64,000 nt of DNA from Pectobacterium punjabense. GTDB lineage: Bacteria; Pseudomonadota; Gammaproteobacteria; Enterobacterales; Enterobacteriaceae. The stretch is from NCBI RefSeq assembly GCF_012427845.1, contig NZ_CP038498.1:2232001-2296000 (forward strand). The letters are read 5' to 3'. The notes beneath the pieces were generated by a model that saw only the letters and a program-made list of their open reading frames with translations, was not told the DNA's origin and did no database searches. Shown in pieces: positions 13,216-63,808 of this stretch (positions are counted from its first letter, which is position 1; the number at the start of each line of letters is the position of its first letter). Both the position numbers and the translations under genes were made by a program.

Positions 13216-13310
13216 TGTTATATTCCCTACTGGTTAGGAAGTCGCTTAATAAAAACACGCATTATGATTTTTGGGACAAGTTCTATTCTATTTATTATTA
13301 AATTACGTTC

Positions 13311-13326
13311 TGTGATCGAGATCGTC
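13311..13326 (-). promoter_or_regulatory. Putative CRP site upstream of kdgM
   Basis: TGTGATCGAGATCGTC agrees at 13 of 16 positions with the CRP consensus TGTGATCTAGATCACA. It is about 95 bases upstream of the kdgM ATG, fitting the known catabolite activation of kdgM-paeX in Dickeya. Confidence 0.6.
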
Positions 13327-13338
13327 TTGGGTAACAAA

Positions 13339-13359
13339 AAGTAAAATAGGGTTTCAAAT
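13339..13359. promoter_or_regulatory. Putative KdgR box upstream of kdgM
   Basis: AAGTAAAATAGGGTTTCAAAT matches most of the KdgR consensus (AAATRAAAYRNYRTTTYATTT), weaker at the outer positions. Sits about 125 bases upstream of kdgM, next to the CRP-like site. KdgR is the established repressor of pectin genes in this group. Confidence 0.5.
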
Positions 13360-13405
13360 TGTGAGGGAGATCGAATTGAATATAGCGGATGTTTTAATTT
13401 AAATG

Positions 13406-13435
13406 AAAAATCCCTGCCGGCGGTGCGGCAGGGAT
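13406..13435 (-). terminator. Terminator after togB
   Basis: Ten-base stem ATCCCTGCCG / CGGCAGGGAT with a six-base loop, followed on the minus strand by TTTTC. It ends the pelW-togMNAB transcript 27 bases past the togB stop. Confidence 0.88.
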
Positions 13436-13462
13436 GAATTACAGTCTAAAACGGGTGCAACA

Positions 13463-14752: not shown

Positions 14753-14767
14753 CGGTTACTACTCCTG

Positions 14768-15895: not shown

Positions 15896-15908
15896 GATAA
15901 ATCCTCTA

Positions 15909-16814
15909 TTAACCTTTAATTCCGCTGCTGGTCACGCCTTGTACGAAGTAGCGCTGTGCCAGGAAGAAAACAATAATGGATGGCAGAATGGAGATGCTGG
16001 ACATGGCCAGAATTTCATTCCACGGAGCGCCTTCAGTAACGTCGATAGACATTTTCAGCGCCAGCGCAATCGGATATTTATCCACGCTATAAACATAAAT
16101 CAGCGGACCGATGAAGTCGTTCATTGACCACATGAACTGGAACAGCGCAACAGAGATGATGGCTGGTTTCAAAATCGGTACGACCACATACCACAGAACC
16201 TGGAAGGAGTTACAGCCATCGATCTGAGCGGCTTCTTCCATATCACGTGGTACACCACGCAGGAACTGGATCAGCATGAACACAAAGAACCCTTGTGTTG
16301 CAAACGCCAGCGGTAAGTACAGTGGCAGATAGCTGTTCAGCATGCCCATTTCGCGGAACATAAGGTACTGAGGAATCAACAGTACGGTGCTTGGCAGCAG
16401 CATGGTGGTGATCAGTGTCGCGAACCAGAAGCCTTTCCACGGAATATCAAAGCGAGCGAAGCCATAAGCCACAATCACTGAGGAAATAACGGTCAGAACC
16501 ACTTTCGGAATCACGTACTGGAAAGTGTTAATCATGTAGTGACCGAAATTGTATTCCGTACCGGTTTTCCAACCGTTAACGAAACCGTCCCATGTGGCGT
16601 GTTCTGGCCACAGGCCCAGTGTCGTGAAGATCTCATGGTTCGGTTTGAACGAGGCTGAGAACATCCACGCCAGTGGGTAAAGCATCAGTAAACCAACGAA
16701 CAGCAGTATCACGTAACGGATAACGGCACTGATTTTTTCTTTACGCAGCGTGCGGCGTACTTCTGCAGCAGCAATTTCTTGTGCTGTAGTCAGGTTTGAA
16801 TGCATGTCAGCCAT
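15909..16814 (-). CDS. togN: Oligogalacturonide ABC transporter permease TogN
   Basis: MalG-type inner-membrane permease, 301 residues with six predicted helices. The EAA loop that contacts TogA is visible as EEAAQIDGCNSFQVLW. Start set at MADMHSNLT (16814), preceded by a strong AAGGAGG at good spacing; the open frame goes back to 17000 but that part is antisense-like sequence inside togM. The start overlaps the togM stop by 8 bases, indicating translational coupling. Confidence 0.93.
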   Translation of the reverse strand: MADMHSNLTTAQEIAAAEVRRTLRKEKISAVIRYVILLFVGLLMLYPLAWMFSASFKPNHEIFTTLGLWPEHATWDGFVNGWKTGTEYNFGHYMINTFQYVIPKVVLTVISSVIVAYGFARFDIPWKGFWFATLITTMLLPSTVLLIPQYLMFREMGMLNSYLPLYLPLAFATQGFFVFMLIQFLRGVPRDMEEAAQIDGCNSFQVLWYVVVPILKPAIISVALFQFMWSMNDFIGPLIYVYSVDKYPIALALKMSIDVTEGAPWNEILAMSSISILPSIIVFFLAQRYFVQGVTSSGIKG

Positions 16815-17697
16815 TTTTTCCTCCTTTATCAGCGGAGTAGAACACCCAGTATTTCGACGACTTAAAGGAGATAGACGCAAATACTGCAACAACCAAGAAC
16901 AGAACCCATGCCAACGCAGCACCGTAACCCATATCGAAATACTTGAACGCCGTATCGTAGATATAGAGCGAGAACAGGTAGGTGTAGTGTGTTGGTCCAC
17001 CGCCAGTGATGACGTAAGGTGCCGTAAACTCCTGGAATGCTTGGGTTGTCTGCATGATAAAGTTAAAGAAGATAACTGGTGTAATCAGCGGTACCGTTAC
17101 TTTCAGGAACATTTGCCATTTGGATGCGCCGTCGATCATGGCTGCTTCATACTGTGATTGCGGAACGTTCTGCAATGCAGCCAGGAAGATAACCATCGCG
17201 GAACCGAACTGCCATACGCGCAGCAGGGTGACCGACATCAGTGCCAGAGACGGTTCGCCCAGCCAGTTGATGGCGTCAAAGCCAAACACGCCGAGGAAGC
17301 TGTTTAACAAACCATCGATGGCGAACAGTGCACGCCACAATACGGCAATTGCCACGCTGCTGCCCAGAATAGAAGGCACATAGTAAGCAGTACGGAAGAA
17401 GCCGATACCACGTAATTTGAAATTAAGTACAAACGCAATTAACAGCGCAAAGATTAATTTCAATGGAATGGTCAGAAATACATAGGCAAAGGTGACGCCC
17501 ATTGATTTCCAAAAGAGATCATCCTCCAGGAACATGCGGTGATAGTTTTCTAGCCCCGTAAATTCAGGCGGATTTATCAAATCATACTCAGTAAAACTGA
17601 GGATAAATGACGAAACAAAGGGGAAAGCGGTAAAAACTATCAGCCCTATAATATAGGGGGAGATATAGGCTAACCCCAGCATTCTGTTTTCATTCAT
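16807..17697 (-). CDS. togM: Oligogalacturonide ABC transporter permease TogM
   Basis: MalF-type permease, 296 residues, six predicted helices. N-terminal LAYISPYIIGLIVFTAFPF and the EAA loop YEAAMIDGASKWQMF are diagnostic of the CUT1 sugar importer class. It pairs with TogN as the membrane channel. Begins 46 bases after pelW and overlaps togN, so it is the first transporter gene in the operon. Confidence 0.93.
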   Translation of the reverse strand: MNENRMLGLAYISPYIIGLIVFTAFPFVSSFILSFTEYDLINPPEFTGLENYHRMFLEDDLFWKSMGVTFAYVFLTIPLKLIFALLIAFVLNFKLRGIGFFRTAYYVPSILGSSVAIAVLWRALFAIDGLLNSFLGVFGFDAINWLGEPSLALMSVTLLRVWQFGSAMVIFLAALQNVPQSQYEAAMIDGASKWQMFLKVTVPLITPVIFFNFIMQTTQAFQEFTAPYVITGGGPTHYTYLFSLYIYDTAFKYFDMGYGAALAWVLFLVVAVFASISFKSSKYWVFYSADKGGKNG

Positions 17698-17743
17698 AAT
17701 GCTTACCTATTTGTAATTGTGAATCATTAAAAAAAATATAAAA

Positions 17744-19375
17744 TCAAGCCGTTAATAACTCTGGATAAATTAACTCCACGTCATAAACAATTCTATTTTC
17801 CCCGTTAACGCAAAAATCACCGTGAACATATCCACCTTGCGTCAAGAACGGTGGAATAGCGTTTAATTTGTTGCGACAAGCGGCAACGAAAGTCAGTAAA
17901 GCCAGCGGATAAGTATCATCCAGACGAACATAACGATGCTGTGCAGAGCGAACAAACAAGCCATGATGGAAGTGTTGTTCAAACAGAACGCTCGCCAACT
18001 GCGCGGCGTAATGTGCCCAGGATTCTGATTGTTTGTGATCGGCCAGTTCAATAACGGTCAACAGCAGCATTGGACTGGCGATGTGCTGAATATTTTCTTT
18101 GTTCAGCCGCGTCAGCATTGTGTTAACCAGTGCATACAGGTCTTCATCGCCGCTTAGACGATAAGCACGAACCAGCGGTAATAAATAATCGCCTTCTAAT
18201 GCAAACGGTTTTAATTCTGTTCCCGCTTTGCCGTAATAGCCATCGCGTTGAAAACGGTAACCTGTCATGTCTTGACCGTTGTTCCACATTGGACGCAGCG
18301 TATTGCTAGTGACATCGTAGGCATACTGATAATAATTTTTTAACCCAGAAATCACCCAATCCAGCATTTCAGCATCAGGCTGGGTACGGAGGATATCCAG
18401 CATTGCCAGTGGGTTATCAATCAGCAGTGGGCGCATATCACGAAACAGCACATTGGCTTCACGCGCAATTTCGCCGAACTCTGGGCCAAACTGGCGTTGC
18501 GCGCGATCGCCAAACCAGGATTGTGTCTGGTTATCATCTTCCGGCACGGGCTGGCGTTGCTGTGGTGAGCTGAACTGATACACCGGCATACCGGTTTCTG
18601 GGTTGCGAGCCAGAACATATTGGCGATAAAGGTGTTTACCCCAAGCCGCGGCATGGCTATCACCCGTGTATTCTGCGTATTTGAATGCGGCGTAAATCAG
18701 ATCAGTGCCAGCGTTAACAAACGTCAACCCTTTCGTTAATGGCAGAGCAGGCCACTTTGCTGGATCGACGACGTCATGACGGTTATGCAGGAACACATTA
18801 GGATCGCGTTTTTTGCTGTAATCGCCATGGCGACCTAAGTCCAATGATTCCCAGTTTTCAACGTGCGCGTTCCAGAAGCCCTGAAAGAAATTCAGCGTCT
18901 TTTCCGCATTAACACGATGCAATAGCGAATAATAAGGCAGGTGATGCTTTAATTCATGCACCTGAGCTTTAGATTCTGGGCCTTCACCGTCTAATGTATC
19001 CAGATTAATAAAGCGATGGCCGCCCCAGTAGAACAGGCCGCTATTATTATCAACAAAGTGTTCCAGAAAATATTCGCTTTGTGCGATAGCGTATTGTTGA
19101 TAACTATCATCATCGGTAACGACGCTCATGGCGCACAGCGTTCTTAGCCAATTCTGCTGGCTGGCAAAATTAGAAATAGGTGCGCTATGTCCATTAGGGA
19201 ATTGCCAGACTACAGGCGCATAATTTTCCACATCAAAGCCATCTGCCAATAACGGCGTAGGTTGACTCTGGCTGCGACCTTTATCCCGTACGCAAGCTAT
19301 GTGGCTATCAAGTGCTGCAACCCATTCGTCGAGCTGCGATTTCCTGCTGGTGTATAAGTTTTCAAAAATACTCAT
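17744..19375 (-). CDS. pelW: Cytoplasmic exopolygalacturonate lyase PelW (PL2)
   Basis: Polysaccharide lyase family 2 enzyme that shortens imported oligogalacturonides to unsaturated disaccharide inside the cell. 543 residues with no signal peptide, as expected for PelW as opposed to extracellular Pel enzymes. Conserved PL2 segments: YWGGHRFINLDTLDG, VHELKHHLPYY, DVTSNTLRPMWNNGQD and PFALEGDYLLPLVRAYRLSG. AAGAAGG precedes the ATG at good spacing. It heads the togMNAB operon (46-base gap to togM) under a KdgR-like box and a CRP-like half-site. Confidence 0.93.
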   Translation of the reverse strand: MSIFENLYTSRKSQLDEWVAALDSHIACVRDKGRSQSQPTPLLADGFDVENYAPVVWQFPNGHSAPISNFASQQNWLRTLCAMSVVTDDDSYQQYAIAQSEYFLEHFVDNNSGLFYWGGHRFINLDTLDGEGPESKAQVHELKHHLPYYSLLHRVNAEKTLNFFQGFWNAHVENWESLDLGRHGDYSKKRDPNVFLHNRHDVVDPAKWPALPLTKGLTFVNAGTDLIYAAFKYAEYTGDSHAAAWGKHLYRQYVLARNPETGMPVYQFSSPQQRQPVPEDDNQTQSWFGDRAQRQFGPEFGEIAREANVLFRDMRPLLIDNPLAMLDILRTQPDAEMLDWVISGLKNYYQYAYDVTSNTLRPMWNNGQDMTGYRFQRDGYYGKAGTELKPFALEGDYLLPLVRAYRLSGDEDLYALVNTMLTRLNKENIQHIASPMLLLTVIELADHKQSESWAHYAAQLASVLFEQHFHHGLFVRSAQHRYVRLDDTYPLALLTFVAACRNKLNAIPPFLTQGGYVHGDFCVNGENRIVYDVELIYPELLTA

Positions 19376-19413
19376 GGAGTACCTTCTTATGGAACCGTGG
19401 AACAGTTCCTTAT

Positions 19414-19435
19414 AAATAGAAACACTGTTTTGATT
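19414..19435. promoter_or_regulatory. KdgR box upstream of pelW-togMNAB
   Basis: AAATAGAAACACTGTTTTGATT carries the GAAAC-N3-GTTTT dyad core of the KdgR consensus, 39-60 bases upstream of the pelW start where a repressor would cover the promoter or early leader. Confidence 0.65.
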
Positions 19436-19481
19436 GATTATATTGCGCTATTAACCTTGTCGTCATGCACGCAATCTCGAA

Positions 19482-19501
19482 AGTGTGATCAAAGTCGGAA
19501 C
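19482..19501 (-). promoter_or_regulatory. Candidate CRP site upstream of pelW
   Basis: TGTGATCAAAGTCGGA: a perfect left half-site TGTGA and a weak right half, about 110 bases upstream of pelW. Fits known CRP activation of pectin genes, but the right half is poor. Confidence 0.4.
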
Positions 19502-19581
19502 GTTGTTTTGATTTTTTTTAAGAAAGGATTTTGGCAGGAAAAAGAATGATGAAAAACGAAATAACAAATTGAAAAATAAAT

Positions 19582-19611
19582 AAAAAGCACAACCGAAATT
19601 GTGCTTTTTAT
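19582..19611 (-). terminator. Terminator after kduD
   Basis: Eleven-base stem AAAAAGCACAA / TTGTGCTTTTT with a six-base loop, followed on the minus strand by TATTTATTTTTC. It separates kduI-kduD from pelW-togMNAB. The rest of the 272-base gap is the pelW control region. Confidence 0.88.
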
Positions 19612-19647
19612 CGCAGATTGGCGAAATGCCGCTAAGAAAAATTACAC

Positions 19648-20409
19648 TTAGCGAGCCAACCAGCCACCGTCAACGGCAATCGTGTAGCCATTGATGTAGT
19701 CAGATGCGCTGGATGCCAGGAAGACGGATGGACCCATCAGATCCTGCGGCAAACCCCAACGGCCAGCGGGGATACGATCCAGAATTTCTTTGCTGCGGTC
19801 TTCATCGGCGCGCAGTTGCTGGGTATTGTTGGTAGCCATGTATCCTGGAGCAATCGCGTTGACGTTGATGCCGTGTTTTGCCCATTCGTTAGCCAACAGA
19901 CGGGTCACACCCATAACGGCGCTTTTTGATGCGGTGTAAGAAGGCACGCGGATACCGCCCTGGAAGGACAGCATAGAAGCGATGTTGATGATCTTGCCGC
20001 CTTTACCTTGTTTGATGAACTGGCGCGCAACGGTCTGAGACATAAAGAAAACGCTCTTAATGTTCAGGTTCATGACGTCGTCCCAGTTTTTCTCGCTGAA
20101 CTCGATAGCATCTTCGCGACGAATGATACCGGCGTTGTTGACCAGAATGTCAACGTGGCCAAATTCAGCAACGGCTTTTTCTACCAGTTCGGCATGGCCA
20201 GATACATTGCTCATGTCAGCAGTCAGGCTCAGGAAACGACGTCCCAGTGCGGTGACTTTTTCGATGGTGTCTTTCGGTTCAACGATGTTGACGCCGACGA
20301 TATCACAGCCTGCTTGTGCCAGACCGATAGCCATACCCTGACCCAAACCGGTATCACAACCAGTGATAAGAGCAACTTTACCTTGCAAATCAAAAGAATT
20401 TAAAATCAT
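19648..20409 (-). CDS. kduD: 2-dehydro-3-deoxy-D-gluconate 5-dehydrogenase KduD
   Basis: NAD(H)-dependent short-chain dehydrogenase that reduces 2,5-diketo-3-deoxygluconate to 2-keto-3-deoxygluconate in pectin breakdown. 253 residues: cofactor motif TGCDTGLGQG, NNAG at about 88-91, catalytic Ser in IASMLSF and YTASK (Tyr/Lys). Ends in DGGWLAR as in E. coli KduD. It is 81 bases downstream of kduI in the same direction and followed by a terminator, so the two form an operon. Confidence 0.96.
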   Translation of the reverse strand: MILNSFDLQGKVALITGCDTGLGQGMAIGLAQAGCDIVGVNIVEPKDTIEKVTALGRRFLSLTADMSNVSGHAELVEKAVAEFGHVDILVNNAGIIRREDAIEFSEKNWDDVMNLNIKSVFFMSQTVARQFIKQGKGGKIINIASMLSFQGGIRVPSYTASKSAVMGVTRLLANEWAKHGINVNAIAPGYMATNNTQQLRADEDRSKEILDRIPAGRWGLPQDLMGPSVFLASSASDYINGYTIAVDGGWLAR

Positions 20410-20490
20410 ATCTATAATCTCTCTGTAAGCGACAATACTTAGTCGTTAGCTGTTACTGTAGGGAACGCCGGTAATTCCGGTTGAAAGCGA

Positions 20491-21327
20491 TTAACGTAAC
20501 TCGCTAACCTTGACGTGATCCATGTCATCGAAAACTTGATTTTCGCCAACCATGCCCCAGATAAAGGTGTAGCGTCTGGTGCCAACACCGGAATGAATTG
20601 ACCAGCTCGGTGAAATCACCGCCTGCTCGTTTTTTATAACTATGTGACGGGTTTCCTGTGGCTGCCCCATCATGTGAAAAACGGCCGTTTCTTCATCCAT
20701 ATCGAAATAGAAATAGACTTCCATCCGGCGCTCATGCGTATGACAAGGCATGGTATTCCACAGGCTGCCTTCAGCCAGCTTGGTTAACCCCATTGTGAGC
20801 TGGCAGGTCGGCAATACATCAGGAACAATGTATTTGTTAATTGTGCGACGATTACAGCTGGCATCCTCTCCCACGGTTTGTGGCGATGCGTCAGCTTGGG
20901 TAATCTTGCGAGTAGGGTATGCGGTATGTGCTGGCGCACTGTTGTAGTAGAATTTGGCTGGGTTAGCCGCATCGACGCTGGTGAACTGCACATTTTTCAC
21001 GCCCATACCCACATAGATGGCTTCTTCATTACCTACGTCGTAGCGTTTCCCATCGATAGTTACGATGCCCGCCCCACCAATGTTGATGGCACCGAGTTCG
21101 CGACGCTCAAGGAAATAGCTGACGCCGAGTTGCTTGCCTACTTCAGTGCCAATTGCCACAGCACTGTGTACAGGCATGATGCCACCGACGATGATCCGGT
21201 CGATGTGGCTATAGGTCATCGTGTAGGCATCGGCAGAAAAAATCTGTTCGATAAGAAATTCACGACGCAGGCCAGCGGTATCTAGCTGCTTCGCATGATC
21301 GCTGTGAATGCTTTGACGAACTTGCAT
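20491..21327 (-). CDS. kduI: 5-dehydro-4-deoxy-D-glucuronate isomerase KduI
   Basis: Cupin-fold isomerase that converts 5-keto-4-deoxyuronate to 2,5-diketo-3-deoxygluconate. 278 residues. Metal-binding cupin residues are in [17 protein letters not shown] (two His and Glu), with a further His in [16 protein letters not shown] lies before the ATG. First gene of kduI-kduD, divergent from kdgF across a 360-base regulatory region holding a strong KdgR box. Confidence 0.97.
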
Positions 21328-32227: not shown

Positions 32228-33070
32228 TTACACGCCGAGCAGACCGATCCAATATCCGAAGATACCGATGGCAAAGAAGCCCATAATCAACCACAGCGCG
32301 TTCACCTTACGTCGCAATAGCCACATGCAGCCAAACGTCAGCAGTAGCGGAACGAGCCCAGGCATGAGCTGATCGAGGATGGATTGAACGGTGGTTACCG
32401 TGGTTTCCCCATTCTGGTTCGTCACTGTCGACACCACCATCGGAATGTTGACGTGAGTCCATTTATTAACCAAGGCTCCCATAACGAACAAACCGAGGAT
32501 AGACGCCGCCTCGGTCATTTTTTGCAGGAAGCCGCCGCCCATATCGCTAACGATATCGATCCCTTTACGGTAGCCGTAAGCGACGCCATAGTAGCGCACC
32601 AGCAGGCGAACCAAATTGAACAGGAGGAAGAAGAGGACAGGCCCTAACAGGCTGCCGCTCATGGCGATCCCGGCACCCAGCGCAGCGAACACCGGACGGG
32701 CGGTACCCCAGAATATCGGGTCGCCGACGCCAGCCAGTGGCCCCATCAACCCGACTTTCAGGCCGTTTATTGCCGCGTCATCAATAGGCGCGCCATTAGC
32801 GCGTTGCTCTTCCATTGCCATCGTTACGCCGAGTATCGGAGCTGCAACAAAGGGCTGTGTATTGAAGAACTCCAGATGGCGCTTGATCGCCTGTTTACGC
32901 TCTTCTGAGTTTTCAGGATAAAGACGGCGAATTACCGGCACCATGGAAAAACAGAAACCGAGTGCCTGCATACGTTCAAAGTTCCAGGAGCCTTGAAACA
33001 GGTTGGAACGGATAAACACCGCACGGATGTCGCTGTCAGTGAGTTTTTTAACATTCGTATTTTCGACCAT
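32228..33070 (-). CDS. manZ: PTS mannose/glucose-family EIID component ManZ
   Basis: Membrane EIID subunit of the mannose PTS, 280 residues, strongly like E. coli ManZ (SNLFQGSWNFERMQALGF, GLMGPLAGVGDPIFWGT). Start at MVENTN (33070) has AGGAG eight bases upstream; the GTG three codons earlier is less likely. Begins 14 bases after manY. Confidence 0.96.
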   Translation of the reverse strand: MVENTNVKKLTDSDIRAVFIRSNLFQGSWNFERMQALGFCFSMVPVIRRLYPENSEERKQAIKRHLEFFNTQPFVAAPILGVTMAMEEQRANGAPIDDAAINGLKVGLMGPLAGVGDPIFWGTARPVFAALGAGIAMSGSLLGPVLFFLLFNLVRLLVRYYGVAYGYRKGIDIVSDMGGGFLQKMTEAASILGLFVMGALVNKWTHVNIPMVVSTVTNQNGETTVTTVQSILDQLMPGLVPLLLTFGCMWLLRRKVNALWLIMGFFAIGIFGYWIGLLGV

Positions 33071-33084
33071 TTTTCTCACTCCTG

Positions 33085-33882
33085 TTAATCCAGTTCGTTA
33101 TCAAGGCTGTTATTGCCTGATGCAACAGACTGGCCTTGAACCTTGTTATATTTCGGGCTGAGCTGGATATACAGCACCGCCATCACAATACCAATTACGC
33201 CCAGCGCCACCAGATTGAACTCAGTGAACGCGGCAGTAACGAAGCCGAGATAGAAGAATGGCATCAGGTAGCCTGCGCGCATCATGTTGATGACCATCGC
33301 GTAACCGACGACGACAATCATCCCACCGGCGATATTCAGGCCGTTGGTGACCACCTCTGGGATGGAGTTGAGCAGGGCGTGAACGGCGTCAGTACCGACG
33401 GAGACCGCGACAATAACCGCAGGAATCGCAATACGCATGGCTTGAAGCAGTAGCGCGGAGACGTGAATCCAACTGATGGCCGTCAGGTTACCTCGCTCTG
33501 CCGCGCTGTCTGCCGCATGCTGAAACGCGACCGTGATGGTACGAACAATGATGGTTAATACTTGCCCGGCGGCAGCGAGCGGAATCGCCAGGGCAATCCC
33601 GGCACCGATTCCCTGACCACCAGCAATAACCAGAATGGTTGAAATAATGGAGGCCAGCGCCGCATCGGGTGCGACTGCCGCACCGATGTTCATCCAGCCT
33701 AATGCGATCATCTCCAGCGTACCGCCAATAATGATCCCGGTTTTTAAATCACCTAATACTGCGCCAATTAGCGTACAAGCGACGAGTGGACGGTGGAACT
33801 GGAATTCATCGAGAATCGAACCCATCCCCGAAACACACGCGACGAGAAATATCAGCACAATTTGAAGTGTGGTAATCTCCAT
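33085..33882 (-). CDS. manY: PTS mannose-family EIIC component ManY
   Basis: EIIC channel subunit of the mannose PTS, 265 residues. Nearly E. coli-like: GMGSILDEFQFHRPL, GMIVVVGYAMVINMM, ending NSLDNELD. Start at MEITTL (33882) with AGGAG at good spacing. Separated from manX by 177 AT-rich bases carrying three TCGACATA repeats. Confidence 0.96.
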   Translation of the reverse strand: MEITTLQIVLIFLVACVSGMGSILDEFQFHRPLVACTLIGAVLGDLKTGIIIGGTLEMIALGWMNIGAAVAPDAALASIISTILVIAGGQGIGAGIALAIPLAAAGQVLTIIVRTITVAFQHAADSAAERGNLTAISWIHVSALLLQAMRIAIPAVIVAVSVGTDAVHALLNSIPEVVTNGLNIAGGMIVVVGYAMVINMMRAGYLMPFFYLGFVTAAFTEFNLVALGVIGIVMAVLYIQLSPKYNKVQGQSVASGNNSLDNELD

Positions 33883-33920
33883 CGTACTTCTCCTATAAAA
33901 TGTGTCTGAGTAAAAATAAA

Positions 33921-33974
33921 TCGACATACCCGTTGATTTCCTATGTCGACATAAAGCTTTTCAATATCGACATA
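33921..33974. repeat. Three direct TCGACATA repeats between manX and manY
   Basis: TCGACATA occurs at 33921, 33946 and 33967; the last two are extended to TCGACATAAAG. Spacings of 25 and 21 bases, roughly two DNA turns. They lie in an unusually long manX-manY spacer; could be incidental. Confidence 0.45.
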
Positions 33975-34059
33975 AAGGCATATCTTGAAAATCGTCAGGT
34001 CTATAAAACTATTATTGATGGTGATGTGAGTGTTAATACCTTTCACATTGCGACAGGTA

Positions 34060-35022
34060 TCAACGCGGCATTTTGTTAATCAAATCCATCATTTTAATCC
34101 GGGAATCGGTTGATACTTTCCGAACCTCCAGTTCAATACCGCGTTTATCTAATTCACGGAATGCCGCAATATCTTTTTCATCAATAGAGACAGCATTATT
34201 GACCTGTGTTTTCCCCTGTTTAAATGCCATCCCACCAATATTGACTGAGGTGATCTTTACGCCATTCTCGATCAGCGTTAATACATCGGTTGGATTAGTG
34301 AATAGCAACATTACGCGATCGGCGGCATATTTCGGGTTGTCATAAACGCGAACGGCTTTTGCCACATCCACGACGTGTGCGGTAACGCCCGGTGGCGCAA
34401 CCTGAGTCAGCAACGTTTTACGCACGTGATCGGCGGCGACTTCATCGCTGACAACAATAATGCGCGAAACATTGGTTTCTTTCGTCCAGCGGGTGGCGAC
34501 CTGACCATGAATCAGACGATCATCTATACGTGCCAACCCGATATTCATATGTTCACCGGGTCCTGCCGGTGTGGGAACCGTGTTGGCTTTTGGTATTGGA
34601 GAGGAAAGGGGAGCTTTGGCTTTCTCCTGATGTTTTAACGCTTTTACACCCTCTCTGCCAGTTTCCAGAGCGATAGCAACCAGATCGGAAAAGGACGGAT
34701 TATCATCCCTAGCCATAAAGGTTTCCGCTAGCATGGGAATATTCACGCCGGCGATAACATCATGGTTTTCTTTGTCGGTGACGAGGCGGCTGGCGGCGTT
34801 GAACGGGCTGCCGCCCCAGGTATCAACGAGAAACAGCACGCCTTGCGATGTATCTAACTGCGTGAGTTTTTCCTGATATTTTTCTATCAATGTTTCGGCG
34901 TTTTCTCCAGGAACGAAATCAATCCAGGCGACATTACGTTGTTCACCAAGAATCATTTCTGCTGTCTTTAACAGCGGTCCCGCAGTGGCGCCGTGAGTGC
35001 ATAACAGTATGGCAATACTCAC
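34060..35022 (-). CDS. manX: PTS mannose-family EIIAB component ManX
   Basis: Cytoplasmic phosphotransfer protein of the mannose PTS, 320 residues. EIIA domain with phospho-His10 in LCTHGATAG; a Pro/Ala-rich hinge about 137-156; EIIB domain with phospho-His172 in IDDRLIHGQV. Heads manXYZ-yobD. A Mlc-like dyad lies about 180 bases upstream, fitting Mlc control of man in E. coli. Confidence 0.96.
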   Translation of the reverse strand: MSIAILLCTHGATAGPLLKTAEMILGEQRNVAWIDFVPGENAETLIEKYQEKLTQLDTSQGVLFLVDTWGGSPFNAASRLVTDKENHDVIAGVNIPMLAETFMARDDNPSFSDLVAIALETGREGVKALKHQEKAKAPLSSPIPKANTVPTPAGPGEHMNIGLARIDDRLIHGQVATRWTKETNVSRIIVVSDEVAADHVRKTLLTQVAPPGVTAHVVDVAKAVRVYDNPKYAADRVMLLFTNPTDVLTLIENGVKITSVNIGGMAFKQGKTQVNNAVSIDEKDIAAFRELDKRGIELEVRKVSTDSRIKMMDLINKMPR

Positions 35023-56858: not shown

Positions 56859-58400
56859 CTATGCGGATGCCGCCCCGTTACGCGGCGGGCAGCGCTCAAT
56901 TAGCTCAATGCTGCCATCTGAGTTAGCCTGCTCCAGATAAACATCAAACCCCCACAGGCGATGGACGTGTTTTAACACTTCCTGACTGCTTTTATCTAAG
57001 GGCGCGCGGTTATGCGGAACGTATCGCAGTGTCAGCGCTCGGTTGCCGCGCAAATCCACGTTCCAGACCTGAATATTTGGCTCCAAATGGCTCAGATTGT
57101 ACTGCGCGGACAACTCTTGCCGAATTAAACGATAACCTTCTTCGTCGTGAATCGCGGCAATTTCCAGATAGTTGTTTCGATCATCGTCCAGCACGGTAAA
57201 TAGCCGGAAATCGCGCATCAATTTAGGTGATAAGAACTGGCTGATGAAGCTCTCATCCTTGAAATTCTGCATTGCGAAATGCAGCGTATCAAGCCAGTCC
57301 TTACCCGCGATATCGGGGAACCAGTAGCGGTCTTCCTCTGTCGGTGACTGACAAATACGCTTGATGTCCTGAAACATTGCGAAGCCCAGCGCATAGGGGT
57401 TGATGCCGCTGTAATACGGGCTGTTATACGGCGGCTGATAAATCACGTTGGTATGGCTGTGCAGGAATTCCAGCATGAAACGCTCAGAGACTCGACCCTC
57501 ATCATAAAGATGGTTCAGGATGGTGTAGTGCCAGAAGGTGGCCCAGCCTTCATTCATCACCTGAGTCTGCTTCTGTGGATAGAAATACTGGCTGACTTTC
57601 CGCACGATACGCAACACCTCTCGTTGCCAAGGCTCGAGCAGCGGGGCGTTTTTCTCCATAAAGTAGAGCAGGTTTTCCTGCGGTTCTTGCGGAAAGCGTC
57701 TTGCTTGTTCTGGTGCCGTCCCCTGTTCGCGGCGCGGTAAGGTTTTCCAAAGGTCGTTGACCTGGCTTTGCAGATAGGCCTCGCGGCTTTTCTGGCGAGA
57801 TTTTTCCTCTTCGAGCGAGATTTTCTGCGGACGCTTATAGCGGTCAACGCCGTAATTCATGAGCGCATGGCAGGAGTCTAACAGGTGCTCGACCTCATCC
57901 ACGCCATAACGTTCTTCACATTGCGCAATATACTGCCGGGCAAAGAGCAAATAATCGACGATAGAGCTGGCGTCGGTCCAACTGCGGAACAGATAGTTGC
58001 CTTTGAAGAACGAATTGTGTCCGTAGCAGGCGTGTGCCATGACGAGTGCCTGCATCGGTAGCGTATTTTCTTCCATCAAGTACGCGATACAGGGATCGGA
58101 GTTAATGACGATTTCATATGCCAGCCCCTGCTGCCCGTGCTTGTACCGCTGTTCGGTTTCGATAAATTTTTTCCCGAACGACCAGTGGGCATAGTTGATC
58201 GGCATACCTATGCTGGAATAGGCATCCATCATTTGTTCTGAGGTGATTACCTCGATCTGATGAGGATAGGTTGCCAGACGATACAGCTTGGCTACCCGAT
58301 CAATCTCGTCGAGATAAACCCGCAATAACTCAAATGTCCAGTCCGGTCCATCACTCAGGCGAAGTGTTTTTTTTACCTGATTATCCGTCGATATAGCCAT
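56859..58400 (-). CDS. ycgB: SpoVR family protein YcgB
   Basis: A 513-residue SpoVR-family protein, strongly conserved with E. coli YcgB (LSDGPDWTFELLRVYLDEID, MAHACYGHNSFFKGNYLF, HSHTNVIYQPPYNSP). Function remains unclear; E. coli ycgB is a stationary-phase, RpoS-linked gene often grouped with yeaG/yeaH. Start at MAISTDN (58400) with AGGGGG before it. The 241 bases upstream (58401-58641) hold no gene. Confidence 0.94.
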   Translation of the reverse strand: MAISTDNQVKKTLRLSDGPDWTFELLRVYLDEIDRVAKLYRLATYPHQIEVITSEQMMDAYSSIGMPINYAHWSFGKKFIETEQRYKHGQQGLAYEIVINSDPCIAYLMEENTLPMQALVMAHACYGHNSFFKGNYLFRSWTDASSIVDYLLFARQYIAQCEERYGVDEVEHLLDSCHALMNYGVDRYKRPQKISLEEEKSRQKSREAYLQSQVNDLWKTLPRREQGTAPEQARRFPQEPQENLLYFMEKNAPLLEPWQREVLRIVRKVSQYFYPQKQTQVMNEGWATFWHYTILNHLYDEGRVSERFMLEFLHSHTNVIYQPPYNSPYYSGINPYALGFAMFQDIKRICQSPTEEDRYWFPDIAGKDWLDTLHFAMQNFKDESFISQFLSPKLMRDFRLFTVLDDDRNNYLEIAAIHDEEGYRLIRQELSAQYNLSHLEPNIQVWNVDLRGNRALTLRYVPHNRAPLDKSSQEVLKHVHRLWGFDVYLEQANSDGSIELIERCPPRNGAASA

Positions 58401-58641
58401 CAGCGCGCCCCCTAGCATAACAAGCCTGTAGATGAGATCCCGTGTGCTGCCTTCCCGTTGGCTCCTGTCAAAAAATCATCGTGGTTCATTTAGTTATAGC
58501 TGAGCTTTGGAGACGCGGCAATTGACTAATTGAGCGTATTCAGTGGATAAATATCGCTGATGGGATAAAAAAGAACGGTGTTTGCACTGTCTATCAATCG
58601 GAGAGTGCGCTCCCCTGAGAGAGCGCAACATGCCGTCTGAA

Positions 58642-59541
58642 CTAGGGGCGCTGATACCGTTTTAACAGCACCTGAATATCGTTGAGGCGAGACACGGCGA
58701 GCGTGGACAATTTCTCTTTAGAAATGTTGCGATCGAGTGAGATGCAATCCTTCCAGAGGGAACGTCCTGCAATCACACCAGAGGCACCATTTTTCAACGC
58801 GCTCTCTACCTGAGGGAGAAAAGTGGCGTGATCGACGCCCGCAGACAGGACAGCCCAAGGTATTTCACCACAGAGCGTGGTCACGCGCGCGCAGGCTTCA
58901 TCCGATCCAGGATAAGGGATCTTCAACACTTTTGCGCCTTGCTCAATACAGGCCTGACAGCCCGCTGGAATGAGCTCGGGCAGGAGATGGGTATAGGCTT
59001 CGCGAGATTCATTTTCCAGAGAATAGGTGAGGAACTCGACGACGAGCAGCAAGTCTTCCTGTGCAAAGTCCTGAATCACGGCACGAAGTGTTTCAAGATT
59101 ACGGGTATTGGCGTCTGTGATATCTGGGCGAAGATAGATCATAATTTTTCCGCCAGTGGCACCCCATTCACGCACTTTACGGGCCGTTACGCCCTCAACC
59201 ATCGTGGAGATCCGATAGCCTTCCGGGCTCGTTTCCCAGCCAGAGGCATCCAGGCCGATGAGTAGGCCGGTATCGCGAGGCAAAATATTGTCGTCTATCA
59301 GGCCTGGTATGGCGCAGATCGGGTCAACCAGCACACAGCCCGCCTCAGCCGCTAGATAGCGTGTGATATCATATTTTGTTTTACCTAATGTTTCATTGGA
59401 AATGGCAGCTTGTGCCTCTGATGTTGGCGCTAATAGTGTGCGCATACCGCCACGTTGATCGCAGGCAATGACCATCATGGCGCCCGTCTCGTCACAAATT
59501 AATTGATATCCCCGGTGTTCAGCTGTTGTCATGGTGTTCAT
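58642..59541 (-). CDS. LacD/YihT-like class I aldolase
   Basis: TIM-barrel class I aldolase (DeoC/FbaB/LacD superfamily), 299 residues. N-terminal VIACDQRGGMRTLL and the Schiff-base Lys region AKVLKIPYPG are as in tagatose-bisphosphate and sulfofructose-phosphate aldolases; GASGVIAGRSLWKD forms the phosphate site. Likely splits a ketose bisphosphate or phosphate into triose phosphates. Start at 59541 has GAGGAT before it; an upstream ATG (59556) is weaker. Last gene of the PTS operon. Confidence 0.82.
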   Translation of the reverse strand: MNTMTTAEHRGYQLICDETGAMMVIACDQRGGMRTLLAPTSEAQAAISNETLGKTKYDITRYLAAEAGCVLVDPICAIPGLIDDNILPRDTGLLIGLDASGWETSPEGYRISTMVEGVTARKVREWGATGGKIMIYLRPDITDANTRNLETLRAVIQDFAQEDLLLVVEFLTYSLENESREAYTHLLPELIPAGCQACIEQGAKVLKIPYPGSDEACARVTTLCGEIPWAVLSAGVDHATFLPQVESALKNGASGVIAGRSLWKDCISLDRNISKEKLSTLAVSRLNDIQVLLKRYQRP

Positions 59542-59578
59542 GATAATTATCCTCATAAAAATTAATGTAAATAAGCGA

Positions 59579-60112
59579 TTAACCCAGATGTGTTTTGATC
59601 CATTGAATTAATTCCTGATGATTAATTTCCTTATCCTGATCAACCGTGTAACACTTTCCAATGCACATTGGCCGTGCCTGATGCGCGAGTGAAATTAATT
59701 CCGGGAGATACTCATCACCGGGATGGCCCTTTATTCTTTCATTCATTCTTTTTTGATACCGTTCCACAACCCGTTCAGGTGAGATAGCATTCCATATTTC
59801 AAGCGAATGCTTGACGCCACACGACGTGAGATATTCTTGTAATATCGACTTCTCACGGAATCCGAACCAGGCATCAAGTATGAAAATGTTATTTTCTGGA
59901 GCCTGTTGAACGATATTAAACATCGCCTGATACGCGGCGTATCCCAGCTTTCTATTTAACGTCCTGTCAATGACATCGCAGAACTGCATCATGAACGGCT
60001 CTTTTATTTCATCGAGGCTTAATCGTGGGAGATACAATTCGTCAGAAATAATACGTGCTACCGTGCTTTTCCCTGATGCTGGTATGCCATTTACTAAAAT
60101 AAGCGTTTTCAT
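59579..60112 (-). CDS. Small P-loop kinase (AAA_33 / gluconokinase-like)
   Basis: A 177-residue NTP-binding kinase: Walker A NGIPASGKSTVA at residues ~8-19, LSLDEIKEPF, lid-like RYQKRMNERIKGHPG. Could phosphorylate the sugar product or a nucleoside/small molecule; substrate not readable. Its ATG overlaps the EIIA stop by 4 bases, so it is coupled to the PTS genes. Context makes sugar metabolism likeliest. Confidence 0.72.
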   Translation of the reverse strand: MKTLILVNGIPASGKSTVARIISDELYLPRLSLDEIKEPFMMQFCDVIDRTLNRKLGYAAYQAMFNIVQQAPENNIFILDAWFGFREKSILQEYLTSCGVKHSLEIWNAISPERVVERYQKRMNERIKGHPGDEYLPELISLAHQARPMCIGKCYTVDQDKEINHQELIQWIKTHLG

Positions 60113-60546
60113 AATACCCCGACAATATCATCTGCTGTGGTGGCACATCGAATACGAGAAAGCATGTCGTCCTGTTCTAATAAACTGACGATGGAGGCAA
60201 TACCTTCTGTAATATGTGCATCGCTGTTAACACCACCGAACATAATTAAAATATCCACCGGCTCACTTCCCTGAATAGAAAGTGGTGTTTGCAACGTCAG
60301 TAAACTAAAGCAATTCTCAATGACGCCGCACTCAGGGCGTGCATGAGGAATAGCGATGCCTTCATCAAAAACATAATAAGGACCGTATTCCTTCGTGCTG
60401 TTTATTACAGCAAGCGGATAGCTCTTTGTAATACACCCTGCGCTGATTAATGGTTTTGCGGCACAATAAATAGCCTCTTCCCATGTTTCACATATCACGC
60501 CGAGTTGAATGCAATTGTGCTGCAAAAGGAAATTTTTTATGCTCAT
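60109..60546 (-). CDS. PTS EIIA component, fructose/Ntr-type (PTS_EIIA_2)
   Basis: 145-residue EIIA with active His in DEGIAIPHARPECGV at about residue 68. Accepts phosphate from HPr and passes it to EIIB. Placement in this operon with UlaB/UlaA-like EIIB and EIIC indicates it is their partner. Overlaps the P-loop kinase. Confidence 0.87.
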   Translation of the reverse strand: MSIKNFLLQHNCIQLGVICETWEEAIYCAAKPLISAGCITKSYPLAVINSTKEYGPYYVFDEGIAIPHARPECGVIENCFSLLTLQTPLSIQGSEPVDILIMFGGVNSDAHITEGIASIVSLLEQDDMLSRIRCATTADDIVGVL

Positions 60547-60552
60547 AAAGCC

Positions 60553-60831
60553 TCATATATTTTTCCGAATGGTGTTCCTGAGTTCATCTATCTGAATGAA
60601 AATAGTATCAACGCGATCCCGATAGTCAGGATGGGAAGAAAATAATTGAATGGCCTGGTTGTATTTAATCATTAGCGTTTTTTGTGTTTCACTATGGGTT
60701 GGATCTTGTGCTAAACGAGATTCAAGTTCAGCTAATTCCTCCTCAATTTCCCTGACGCGGTTGTTATCCGTATTATCACGACGGCCGGAAGAGGCGGTTG
60801 GCAATAAAAAACGTTTGAGTGAAGAAAACAT
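60553..60831 (-). CDS. Hypothetical 92-residue coiled-coil protein
   Basis: Not recognised. Basic N-terminus MFSSLKRFLLPTASSGRRD, then an acidic heptad-rich helix VREIEEELAELESRLAQDP (about 26-44) and a second helical region 50-92. No membrane segment. AAGGAG is well spaced before the ATG. Being inside the operon between EIIC and EIIA suggests a regulatory or PTS-associated role, but nothing in the sequence proves it. Confidence 0.75.
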   Translation of the reverse strand: MFSSLKRFLLPTASSGRRDNTDNNRVREIEEELAELESRLAQDPTHSETQKTLMIKYNQAIQLFSSHPDYRDRVDTIFIQIDELRNTIRKNI

Positions 60832-60895
60832 AGTGACTCCTTAACAATCTACACCATGACATTAATGACGACAGGACATGCGATGTGTTTATGCG

Positions 60896-62232
60896 TTATT
60901 GCGATAGTTTACGATTCGCAATAAAGGCAATGGCTGCAACAAACGCGATAAATACGGCGACAAATAACCAGTCTTGCTGGAAGGCGTGTCCTAATATCAA
61001 CCCTGTACCGATGACATCAGAATCACTGAAGGTGACGCCAGTAAATCCGAAGACTTCCAGTAATGGCACCAGAATGGCGGGTAACAAGGTAATGAAAAGG
61101 CCATGAACCACACCGCCGATAATTGCGCCACGCCGTCCTCCCATCGCGTTACCGAAAATACCCGCCGTTCCGCCCGCAAAGAAGTTGGTCAATAACCCTG
61201 GCAAAATCATCGCCAATCCAAACATGGGGAAGATCAGCATTCCCAGGATTGAACCGACGGTGGTGGCGAGGAAGCCAACAATCACGGCGTTGGGAGCATA
61301 GGGGAAGAGCACCGGGCAATCCAACGCGGGTTTAGCGTTAGGCACCAGACGCATGGCGATACCTCGAAATGCAGGTACCAGCTCATTAAGCAGCAGGCGT
61401 ACGCCGCTGTAGAGAACGAAAACGCCCGCCACAAACTGCATCGACTGCATGAAGGAATACATCAGATAGTTGACGCCATTGGCATACTGCGCGATGTAGG
61501 CGGGTCCCGCAGCCAAGGCGGGGATAAGGTACATTGGCACCATGACGACGGCCATCGACAGGTAGGTATCCTGCAAGAATTTGAAGTTATCGGGCAGCGT
61601 TAAATCTTCTGTAGATTTGGAGTTTTACCGACTAGCCGAGCGACGGCAGCCTGCACCAGATATCCAATGGTACAAAAATGGCCCAGTGCAACATCATCCG
61701 AATTCGTGATTTTACGGACAATCGGCTGCGCCAGCGCAGGCATCAGCACGGCCATCACGCCGCCAAATATGCCTCCGGTGAGGATCAACGTCGCGCCGCT
61801 CAAGCCCGACTTATAGCCGATCACAGTACCGATGGTTGCCATCCACAGCAGAGCCTGCCCCGTCAGGAAGATATATTTAAAGGGAGTAATCCGCGCAATC
61901 AGGATGTTGACGGCAAAGATCACCATCAGCGTCAATGCGACTTCGGACCCAAGTTCGCGGTTTGCCAATCCGGCGATGGCGGCGACATCGGTGATGTAAC
62001 CCTTCATGCCGAAACCGTGGGTAAAGATGCTGTTCAAGTACGTCAGGGCATCGACGATAATGTTAATCCCTGCCATCATGATGAGGAAACCAAGCAGTGT
62101 CTTGAACGTCCCCTCTGCAATTTTCCCTACCGATTTTTTCTGTAAAATCAACCCGATCATGGCGATCAGCGCGATTAGTATGGAGGCCTGGCCTAATAAA
62201 TCTTTCACAATGAAATTGATAACGGTGTTCAT
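60896..62232 (-). pseudogene. PTS EIIC component, ascorbate (UlaA) family, split by a frameshift
   Basis: Inner-membrane sugar channel of the UlaA/SgaT family. Part one (62232-61600, 210 residues) is the N-terminal half ending GKTPNLQKI then stop; part two (60896-61576 from its first Met, open back to about 61614) continues with EDLTLPDNFKFLQDTYLSMA and the C-terminal half to NRKLSQ. Both halves align in order with E. coli UlaA; one base missing (or two added) near 61600-61615 joins them. No slippery heptamer is present, so a mutation or sequencing error is likelier than programmed frameshifting. Confidence 0.8.
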
Positions 62233-62245
62233 TTTTCACCTCATG

Positions 62246-62539
62246 CTATTTATGAGCCTGGATGTAGGCTAAAATTTTTTCTTCTATTTCATCTTTGTCG
62301 GTAAGTTTATTAAGAATGATGACTCTTTTTTTCTCATCTTCACTGGCGTCGCTATTCAGGATCTCCGCAAATATTTTCTGGGTTAGAATGACGTCATAAT
62401 TAAAGGCTGAGGCTTCTGAAATCGTGGTATGATTGATTTCTGCATCAATTCCCAATTTTTTCAGTACGGATTTCGCACTCATTTCGATAGCGAAACTGGA
62501 ACCTAATCCACAGCCGCAAACGCAAAGTACTTTCAACAT
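62246..62539 (-). CDS. PTS EIIB component, ascorbate/lactose-like
   Basis: 97-residue EIIB with phospho-Cys in LCVCGCGLGSSFAIEM near the N-terminus, characteristic of SgaB/UlaB-type EIIB. Start at 62539 with GAGG nine bases upstream; longer open frame lies in the pfk-like gene. Follows the kinase by 10 bases. Confidence 0.88.
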   Translation of the reverse strand: MLKVLCVCGCGLGSSFAIEMSAKSVLKKLGIDAEINHTTISEASAFNYDVILTQKIFAEILNSDASEDEKKRVIILNKLTDKDEIEEKILAYIQAHK

Positions 62540-62549
62540 GATAATGGCC

Positions 62550-63530
62550 TCATATAAGGTGATGAGCTTTCGCGAGCTTATAAAAATGGCTTTCGACATC
62601 AACCAAACGTCGTTCGGAATCCTCCAGGTCAATAGGGATGGCTTTATTGTTGTTATTAATAATGATAATTTTATTGGTCAGCCCGGCGTTAATGCACCGG
62701 ACCATTTCTTCTGCTAATAGTGTGCCCTGAATAATTTCTTCCCCGGTGGGCGCGCCATTTCGTAAACCGTACCCTAAAATGGTTTTTCGGATGCGGATTC
62801 CAACCTTATGCTCAATTTTCTTGATAATCGTGTCTATGGCACCCTGAAAGCCAGGCGTATATTCCTGAGTGTATCCTTCAGAGCATAAAATAATGACGCT
62901 ATTCTGTTCTGCGATTTTCTCGCGAATACGTTGCGATAATGTATCAATGCTCCACGGTGATTCTGGAATGAGTGCGATATCGGCATTGCTCTTTAATGCT
63001 GCCTGTAGTGTTAGTTCACCGCAATAGCCACCGAGTAATTCAATCATAAAGACCCGACCTTGTAATCCCCGACCCGTATTGCGTAATTTCTCCACTTCAC
63101 TCATTACCTGCTCGCAGGCGGTAGAAAAACCAATCGTATAGCTGTTCCCTGAAATATCATTATCGATTGTCATTCCTACACCGTAACAATGAATGCCATA
63201 GTGGCTTAACTTTTTTAGAAATTGAAATGAACCATCTCCTCCCGCCATAATGAGCGCATCGAGTTTTTGTTTTTGGATGTTTTTAACGATGTGCTCGTAG
63301 TCTGTTTTTCTACATTTTCCATTTTTTCGCCCTGATGCAATCAGCGGCATTGATGAAATGGAGTAATCTACCAAATCTCGACGAGTGAGGATTTTACAGC
63401 AATTATCGATAAGGCCATTAATTCCCCCATCGAAAATGACGATGTCAGCGGCAGTCATTCTATTCACCTGATAGATGAAGTTATTTATTCCGCTAACGTC
63501 GCCGCCGCTAATGACTAATCCAATTTTCAT
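62550..63530 (-). CDS. Divergent phosphofructokinase-family sugar kinase
   Basis: PfkA-family enzyme of 326 residues. Conserved: GGDGS (97-101), catalytic TIDND (121-125), an Arg equivalent to R162, Glu equivalent to E222, and Arg in GLRNG. Changed relative to E. coli PfkA: the residue before TIDND is Met (Gly in ATP-PFK, Lys in PPi-PFK), MGR becomes LGG, and His249 becomes Tyr (ILGYGLRNGAP). These are fructose-6-phosphate contacts, so a different sugar phosphate is likely. GGDG favours ATP. Start at 63530 (second ATG) with GAGGG at good spacing. First gene of the operon. Confidence 0.82.
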   Translation of the reverse strand: MKIGLVISGGDVSGINNFIYQVNRMTAADIVIFDGGINGLIDNCCKILTRRDLVDYSISSMPLIASGRKNGKCRKTDYEHIVKNIQKQKLDALIMAGGDGSFQFLKKLSHYGIHCYGVGMTIDNDISGNSYTIGFSTACEQVMSEVEKLRNTGRGLQGRVFMIELLGGYCGELTLQAALKSNADIALIPESPWSIDTLSQRIREKIAEQNSVIILCSEGYTQEYTPGFQGAIDTIIKKIEHKVGIRIRKTILGYGLRNGAPTGEEIIQGTLLAEEMVRCINAGLTNKIIIINNNNKAIPIDLEDSERRLVDVESHFYKLAKAHHLI

Positions 63531-63792
63531 CATCGCCCTCGAAAATATGAATAACCGTCGTGTGAACACAATGTTATTAAACTGATAAGGCGTTTTTTTG
63601 ATGGATGTCGCAATTTTGTATTTAATTACGCGTAAGCATGTCTTGACAGCAAGATTGTTGCTTCTATTTGTGTGATGATGGTCATAATTTAAAAACAAGC
63701 AATCTAACTAACGTGTTAATTAAACTGGGATTTAACATTTCTATCTTTTTTACTTTTCCTTCTCTTTTTTGCGAAAAAACGAAAGCGTATTT

Positions 63793-63808
63793 TGTGAATG
63801 GTTTCACA
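63793..63808. promoter_or_regulatory. CRP site upstream of the PTS operon
   Basis: TGTGA-ATGGTT-TCACA exactly matches the CRP consensus half-sites. It is 263 bases from the pfk-like start and may serve this operon, a divergent gene beyond the window, or both. The rest of 63534-64000 is AT-rich with no recognised gene; an AATGA-N5-TCATT dyad is at 63954-63968. Confidence 0.7.

Follow-up and report, generated by a model that had tools for sequence, protein, structure and literature searches.

A 64,000-nucleotide stretch of the Pectobacterium punjabense genome (contig NZ_CP038498.1, positions 2,232,001 to 2,296,000; hereafter the window) carries a minus-strand operon between positions 58,642 and 63,533. 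Its genes stand in the order PFK-like kinase (PFK), EIIB, EIIC, a 92-residue protein (X92), EIIA, P-loop kinase (PLK), and LacD/DeoC-type aldolase. This is a real, conserved, accessory catabolic operon. Sequence comparisons suggest, with a probability of about 0.72, that the operon is under CRP control and encodes a catabolic route of the phosphotransferase system (PTS) type, in which a ketose bisphosphate is cleaved. In the proposed mechanism, EIIA, EIIB, and EIIC would import a 2-keto sugar and add the first phosphate; the PFK paralogue would add a second phosphate at C1; and the aldolase would split the resulting ketose bisphosphate, yielding dihydroxyacetone phosphate and an aldose phosphate, both of which could enter glycolysis. 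The PLK would belong to the same route, where it most likely phosphorylates a sugar or an aldose, and X92 might be an accessory of the PTS version.

Named genomes were searched with an alignment of the PLK alone, so the neighbouring genes were outside the query. A PLK relative was encoded at 312 places, and the best-scoring 80 loci were fetched; less closely related loci may show a less regular arrangement. The order PFK>EIIB>EIIC>X92>EIIA>PLK was found on one strand in 77 of the 80, well beyond what chance would give. The exceptions are L037, which lies at a contig edge; L051, from which PFK and the larger part of EIIB are missing; and L097, which is rearranged and lacks X92. Taken singly, PFK was present in 78 loci, EIIB and X92 in 79 each, and EIIC, EIIA, and PLK in all 80. 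The linkage is conserved across Enterobacterales and extends to Vibrio and Celerinatantimonas. The original prediction, made from the letters of the window alone, had looked to related genomes for such linkage, and they bear it out. The exceptional locus of Sodalis sp. dw_96 (L097) has a divergent PTS operon with the layout SorC-ALD-PLK-EIIA-PFK-EIIB-EIIC; it is possibly a bridge between the enteric layout and the rhizobial one described below.

The best evidence for aldol cleavage of a ketose bisphosphate appears to be an exchange of the aldolase within these loci. The class I aldolase was found in 23 of the 80, directly after PLK in 22 and before it in L097. In 56 loci, it is replaced by another aldolase cluster, located between EIIC and X92. 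The assignment of this cluster to class II rests on one scanned member, from K. pneumoniae (L091), which gave 299 bits with Pfam F_bP_aldolase and 262 with the NCBIfam ketose-bisphosphate aldolase subfamily (cut-off 216), and fell under the cut-offs of other models (e.g. TIGR01859, 288 vs 343). Neither aldolase was found by gene calling in L099. A PLK tree with 81 rows groups all but one of its 24 class I rows, 23 in number, into one clade (100/98), which joins the class II rows of Vibrio and Celerinatantimonas (96/93); the lone class I row outside it, L097, sits on a long branch. This topology is as expected if the class I aldolase replaced class II once. The tree was drawn from its midpoint, with a long-branch warning for the Vibrio rows, and the direction of change is our inference. 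Because two aldolase families have been swapped in the same operon, the steps that were first proposed for it, namely import with phosphorylation, a second phosphorylation, and aldol cleavage, are supported.

A counterpart of the operon occurs in rhizobia. The window aldolase is 65.6-73.7% identical to plasmid proteins of Agrobacterium, Rhizobium, and Aureimonas (20 listed of 123 matching records). In five rhizobial regions that were read, the aldolase lies beside a SorC-type regulator, an ATP-binding cassette (ABC) importer, which is CUT2 in four and of another kind in L015, and a 'ROK family' protein. This protein, of about 480 aa, is a ROK kinase fused to a P-loop kinase of the PLK type. 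The domain pair is not named in the annotation of L015-L019; the fusions are found in L015-L019 and L140-L156. Among 297 genomes of one family, taken to be Rhizobiaceae, 23 had a match at E <= 1e-40, and 20 regions were fetched. They contain the aldolase (18), the ROK-PLK fusion (17), ROK and PLK apart (3), SorC (15), and a CUT2 binding protein (19). A PfkB gene is nearby in 6 and a PF08013 gene in 7 of the 20; for each of the two, Pfam confirmed one member. PLK and aldolase thus go together across different transporters. Since PLK is kept when the transporter, the first kinase, and the lineage change, it would act in the same route; it may represent a new sugar-kinase family. It may act on the aldehyde product, on a second position, or on a second entry sugar.

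The features of the operon and its upstream region in the window are as follows.

62550..63533, minus strand: PFK-A-like kinase, 327 aa; Pfam PFK 211 bits; second ATG at 63530.
62246..62539, minus strand: PTS EIIB, UlaB-like, 97 aa; Pfam PTS_IIB 48 bits.
61600..62232, minus strand: N-terminal half of PTS EIIC, with a stop after the frame break; EIIC-GAT positions 2-199.
60896..61624, minus strand: C-terminal half of PTS EIIC in another frame, open between stops; EIIC-GAT positions 200-394.
60553..60831, minus strand: X92, 92-residue protein; no Pfam or NCBIfam match above cut-off.
60109..60546, minus strand: PTS EIIA, 145 aa, nearest curated model UlaC; PTS_EIIA_2 90 bits.
59579..60112, minus strand: P-loop (AAA_33-type) kinase PLK, 177 aa; AAA_33 30.7 bits, cut-off 27.
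58642..59541, minus strand: class I LacD/DeoC-type aldolase, 299 aa; DeoC/LacD 53 bits; alternative start at 59556.
63793..63808, no strand assigned: CRP-like site, exact TGTGA-N6-TCACA, from the upstream motif scan.
63671..63686, no strand assigned: second, weaker CRP-like site with 1 mismatch, from the same scan.

The intergenic gaps are 6-64 bases, and EIIA overlaps the P-loop kinase by 4 bases. Seven minus-strand genes had been predicted. Their order, strand, and families, and the coordinates of six, were recovered; EIIC, however, occupies two frames and is not one gene. The broken EIIC, the class II version of the operon, and the rhizobial counterpart with its ROK-PLK fusion were absent from that prediction.

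The operon PFK scored 169 on the NCBIfam PfkA equivalog model TIGR02482 (cut-off 371), which is below the equivalog level. A second PFK in the host genome scored higher, with 374 bits on Pfam PFK against 211.5 for the operon PFK. Eight operon PFKs were compared with this second enzyme; the residue numbering and roles are presumably those of E. coli PfkA. R162, E222, R243, and R252 are unchanged in all eight. R171 is replaced by G in 6/8 and by A in L044 and L097; in those two loci H249 is replaced by F, and in the other six by Y. The PfkA effector site is partly lost. The window PFK retains the GGDGS and TIDND catalytic and ATP motifs; the L097 PFK has GGGGS and SIDND in their place, and the L044 PFK has TVDND. 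Judged from these residues, the window enzyme is apparently an active ATP kinase whose sugar-phosphate pocket has been altered. The changed sugar-phosphate contacts and the partial loss of the effector site, with residue roles as assumed above, would also suit a PTS cluster with bystander genes, in which the PFK paralogue and PLK are regulators or act elsewhere. Such a reading is very improbable given the fixed gene order, the retained catalytic motifs of the window PFK, and the fusion of PLK to a ROK kinase in most of the rhizobial regions.

The other proteins also retain predicted functional residues. Membership of the PTS is indicated by PF00359, PF02302, and PF03611, all above the Pfam cut-offs, with EIIC in two frames. 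The EIIB motif CVCGCGLGSS and the EIIA motif PHARPE, which includes the predicted phospho-accepting His, are conserved in 11/11 aligned sequences each; we take this His and the EIIB Cys to be the phospho-acceptors. The EIIC scores best on NCBIfam PRK12997.1-3, 'PTS sugar transporter subunit IIC'. It is UlaA-like at the family level: its separate halves gave 203.8 and 268 bits on PRK09410.1-1 (cut-off 380), and the intact EIIC of the Klebsiella class II version reached 478 bits. A protein search found 766 relatives of PLK. The Walker A motif PASGKS is invariant in 22/22 aligned sequences, and about 50 residues are invariant among these 22 relatives. No characterised relative of PLK was found in the searches; the best solved structure was 2rhm, a 'putative kinase', at 36.5 bits. 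The same kind of search gave 55 relatives of X92, and the named ones come from genera that also have PLK. The aldolase motifs DQR(G), GGK, VVEFLTY, KVLKIPYP, LSAG, and AGRS align with LacD or YihT and are conserved in relatives. The predicted Schiff-base Lys, whose role is assumed here, is retained in alignment with YihT, and DQR, Lys, and Glu are retained in alignment with LacD. For LacD itself, the part of the source consulted assigns roles to Lys126 and Glu164 (PMC9007349).

Several observations weigh against the proposed cleavage of a ketose bisphosphate. A plain hexulose bisphosphate would call for just two phosphorylating parts, and the operon has three (EII, PFK, and PLK). No PFK-like gene was seen in the 20 rhizobial regions by phmmer with the window PFK, so the rhizobial version would lack the step assigned to PFK. 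The 80 loci and their upstream sites are related by descent, and their counts are not independent. Moreover, no regulator gene linked across most of the 80 fetched loci was seen.

The rhizobial counterpart also bears on the substrate. Its binding protein is an orthologue of PDB 5dkv (546.5, 535.8, and 554.8 bits; the next entry gave 132.1 and 126.9 for the first two). The structural match of binding protein P0151 to 5dkv has 76% identity, and the entry names Agrobacterium vitis Avis_5339; the model had a middling pLDDT of 65 and was used only to reach structure entry titles. The ligand of 5dkv is reportedly alpha-D-tagatopyranose. Because of this orthology and the PF08013 family content, D-tagatose would be the first substrate candidate. 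The PTS would then form tagatose-6-phosphate, PFK the 1,6-bisphosphate, and the LacD-like or GatY-like aldolase would cleave it. The binding protein is linked to the same aldolase in rhizobia, the PfkB and PF08013 genes counted above lie nearby, and tagatose-bisphosphate aldolases occur in both aldolase families. The PF08013 (GatZ/KbaZ) family includes tagatose-6-phosphate C4-epimerases, according to the portion seen of PMC11907403.

Published phenotypes of carrier species speak against D-tagatose, which is a rather unlikely substrate on the whole. The class II version is intact in R. terrigena (L076), R. planticola (L064), and R. ornithinolytica (L057). These we take to be, under other collection numbers, the same Raoultella type strains as those phenotyped. 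All three type strains are tagatose-negative by API 50 in table 2 of PMC11096500. Likewise, the consulted part of PMC9503840 records no acid from tagatose by isolates of Pectobacterium punjabense, carotovorum, and brasiliense (VITEK), and intact class I operons are present in P. carotovorum L024 and P. brasiliense L025, strains other than those phenotyped. The known enteric tagatose genes, tagKTH-gatY, are also different, as far as the excerpt of PMC10101011 describes them. Strain differences, short tests, or silent genes could explain the negative phenotypes. In other partly consulted descriptions, Raoultella lignicola, the type strain of R. scottia, Dryocola baronae, and Silvania confinis are tagatose-positive; Dryocola mayonis, D. 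sharpae, Brenneria izbisi, Erwinia psychrophila, and E. magellanica are negative. These strains, in which carriage of the operon was unchecked, were not used.

A ketose other than tagatose is at present the likelier substrate. There is slightly less than an even chance that the substrate is another plant ketose shaped like tagatose, such as D-mannoheptulose, sedoheptulose, psicose, or a branched sugar (hamamelose). Such a sugar would account for the tagatose-type binding protein as well as the negative tagatose tests, and many carriers belong to plant-associated genera, judged by name. Bisphosphate cleavage presumably fits heptuloses equally on chemical grounds. D-mannoheptulose has the same C3-C5 configuration as tagatose, and its cleavage would give dihydroxyacetone phosphate and erythrose-4-phosphate. 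However, chemistry is the sole ground for guessing at heptuloses, psicose, and hamamelose, and no single one is favoured by the data. Poor growth on psicose is described in the part seen of PMC6020474 for a mutant of K. pneumoniae NTUH-K2044 that is affected at a different locus. That locus was rejected as a match, since it has other genes (permease, ribokinase-type kinase, and epimerase). Ascorbate was ruled out as the substrate by the other genes of the operon.

Searches of the open-access literature for hamamelose, for tagatose in Pectobacterium, and in free text gave no description of the operon, and no characterised operon with the same gene set was found there, which does not prove that none exists. 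The original prediction of a PTS operon for a sugar and a pathway that it could not name therefore stands, also in view of the linkage across Enterobacterales. We tentatively propose, at somewhat below even odds, that Enterobacterales, Vibrionaceae, and Rhizobiales share an undescribed route, in which a new PLK kinase family and a bisphosphate aldolase act on a non-tagatose plant ketose, e.g. a heptulose, with the PTS and ABC versions feeding one core. A gene set that is so widely conserved, and for which the searches gave no substrate, marks a clear gap in the known sugar metabolism of enterics, both plant-associated and clinical. Together with the rhizobial counterpart, the occurrence of two aldolase versions narrows the choice of substrate to ketose-like sugars.

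The control region was compared in 79 upstream regions of 350 bases each, including the window, from loci with PFK >300 bits. The sequence TGTGA-N6-TCACA, which we take to be the CRP consensus, occurs exactly in 48/79 and with <=1 mismatch in 72/79. Sites with <=1 mismatch lie at -160 to -143 in 62 regions and at -296 to -276 in 34. In 100 rounds of dinucleotide shuffling, the means were 0.01 for exact sites, 0.82 for sites within 1 mismatch, and 0.05 for the place at -160 to -143. From these motifs we infer control by CRP. Promoter and terminator scans of the region gave fewer matches than in shuffles.

In the host genome, EIIC is broken, by mutation or by assembly error. One open frame, at 62232-61600, encodes 210 aa; the other, at 61624-60896, spans 242 codons between stops, and the two meet near 61,600-61,624. 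EIIC is whole (444-445 aa) in 9/9 named Pectobacterium and Samsonia loci. Each half is 98% identical to the matching half of the intact P. polonicum protein, so the break is either recent or an assembly error. A whole-genome PF03611 search returned just the two EIIC pieces and no other EIIC-GAT gene. With EIIC broken and no further EIIC of that family encoded, the sugar route is probably off in this host. An assembly error, which would leave the operon intact and active, has close to an even chance, if a little under it. It would agree with the near-identity to P. polonicum, with the open frames of all other operon genes, and with the neighbours dsbB, nhaB, fadR, and spoVR, which match relatives in length (176, 526, 239, and 519 aa). 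On the other side, the genome is a single contig of 4.79 Mb with a listed completeness of 100%, and broken operon genes elsewhere make real losses plausible. Enterobacter sp. R1(2018) (L072) has its PFK in two pieces, and Pantoea brenneri (L099) has its EIIC in two frames; the operon seems prone to occasional decay.

The presence of the operon is patchy, in agreement with its description as accessory in the original prediction. The nearest named relatives of the window proteins in protein searches are from Pectobacterium, and PLK is found in 17/25 genomes of the genus, host included. In the window, the operon is flanked by spoVR (56,859-58,418) on one side and, past the window end, by a divergent dadA-like gene on the other; the latter name was judged from the sequence of the fetched locus L001. 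The aldolase adjoins spoVR in 15/25 genus genomes, and two carriers have something else between. Of the eight genomes without PLK, five have the dadA-like gene next to spoVR instead, which is the empty site, and the remaining three have neither the aldolase nor the dadA-like gene within the fetched flank. A 3.6-kb Klebsiella class II piece (EIIC to PLK) had zero blastn matches among 5,426 E. coli genomes. By megablast, the window region matched 405 genomes of the E. coli collection, and the 20 listed all concern ycgB/spoVR.

Other genes accompany some of the loci. A HAD phosphatase lies near 12 class I loci (L014 included) and one rhizobial locus, with 38-46% identity. In Agrobacterium rubi (L015:5221-7473), a short-chain dehydrogenase/reductase (SDR), a HAD phosphatase, and a PdxJ-like gene are next to the aldolase and ROK-PLK. 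This SDR is 49% identical to the one preceding PFK in L034; the other two of the four SDR members are 27-34% alike to the rest, and the SDR was dropped as a general shared gene on this ground. Elsewhere in the window, translations at 12511-21327 indicate what we take to be a kdgM-like porin and a tog-like pectin-oligomer uptake cluster. A mannose-type PTS gene group lies at 32228-35022, where one open reading frame resembles a fused EIIAB, judged by eye.

Compared with known systems, the operon shares single steps or families with several. The tagKTH-gatY system of Klebsiella, with a Bacillus licheniformis relative, has in common PTS import, a second kinase, a tagatose-1,6-bisphosphate aldolase, and triose products; the part consulted compares its EII with the fructose PTS and gives TagK as its kinase (PMC10101011). 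In contrast, the operon here has an EIIC of the EIIC-GAT family (PF03611) and not of the fructose type, a PFK-A paralogue, and the additional PLK and X92. The ula L-ascorbate PTS (UlaA/B/C) has the same EIIC family and provides the nearest curated EIIA and EIIB models. However, the scores are far under the Ula equivalog cut-offs (EIIB 25 vs 138 bits, EIIA 103 vs 187 bits), and within the operon PFK, PLK, and the aldolase take the place of the ula catabolic genes. The lac tagatose-6-phosphate pathway (LacC/LacD) has a class I aldolase of the LacD family with shared predicted catalytic residues, whereas the aldolase here scored 48 on the lacD equivalog TIGR01232 (cut-off 432) and 147 on its best model, PRK12858.1 (184). 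The kinase is PFK-A-like here, and LacC is PfkB-like. The Agrobacterium altritol/galactitol route, reportedly described by Wichelecki in 2015, employs a PfkB tagatose kinase and a PF08013 epimerase, the two families seen near part of the rhizobial counterparts. PF08013 had 0 matches in the host genome, and the Agrobacterium route proceeds by epimerisation, whereas cleavage is predicted here. Finally, the sulfofructosephosphate aldolase YihT belongs to the same superfamily, with an aligned Schiff-base Lys and DQR motif, at just 51-52 bits. Unlike the YihT system, the operon here has a PTS, and its remaining genes presumably differ from those of sulfoglycolysis.

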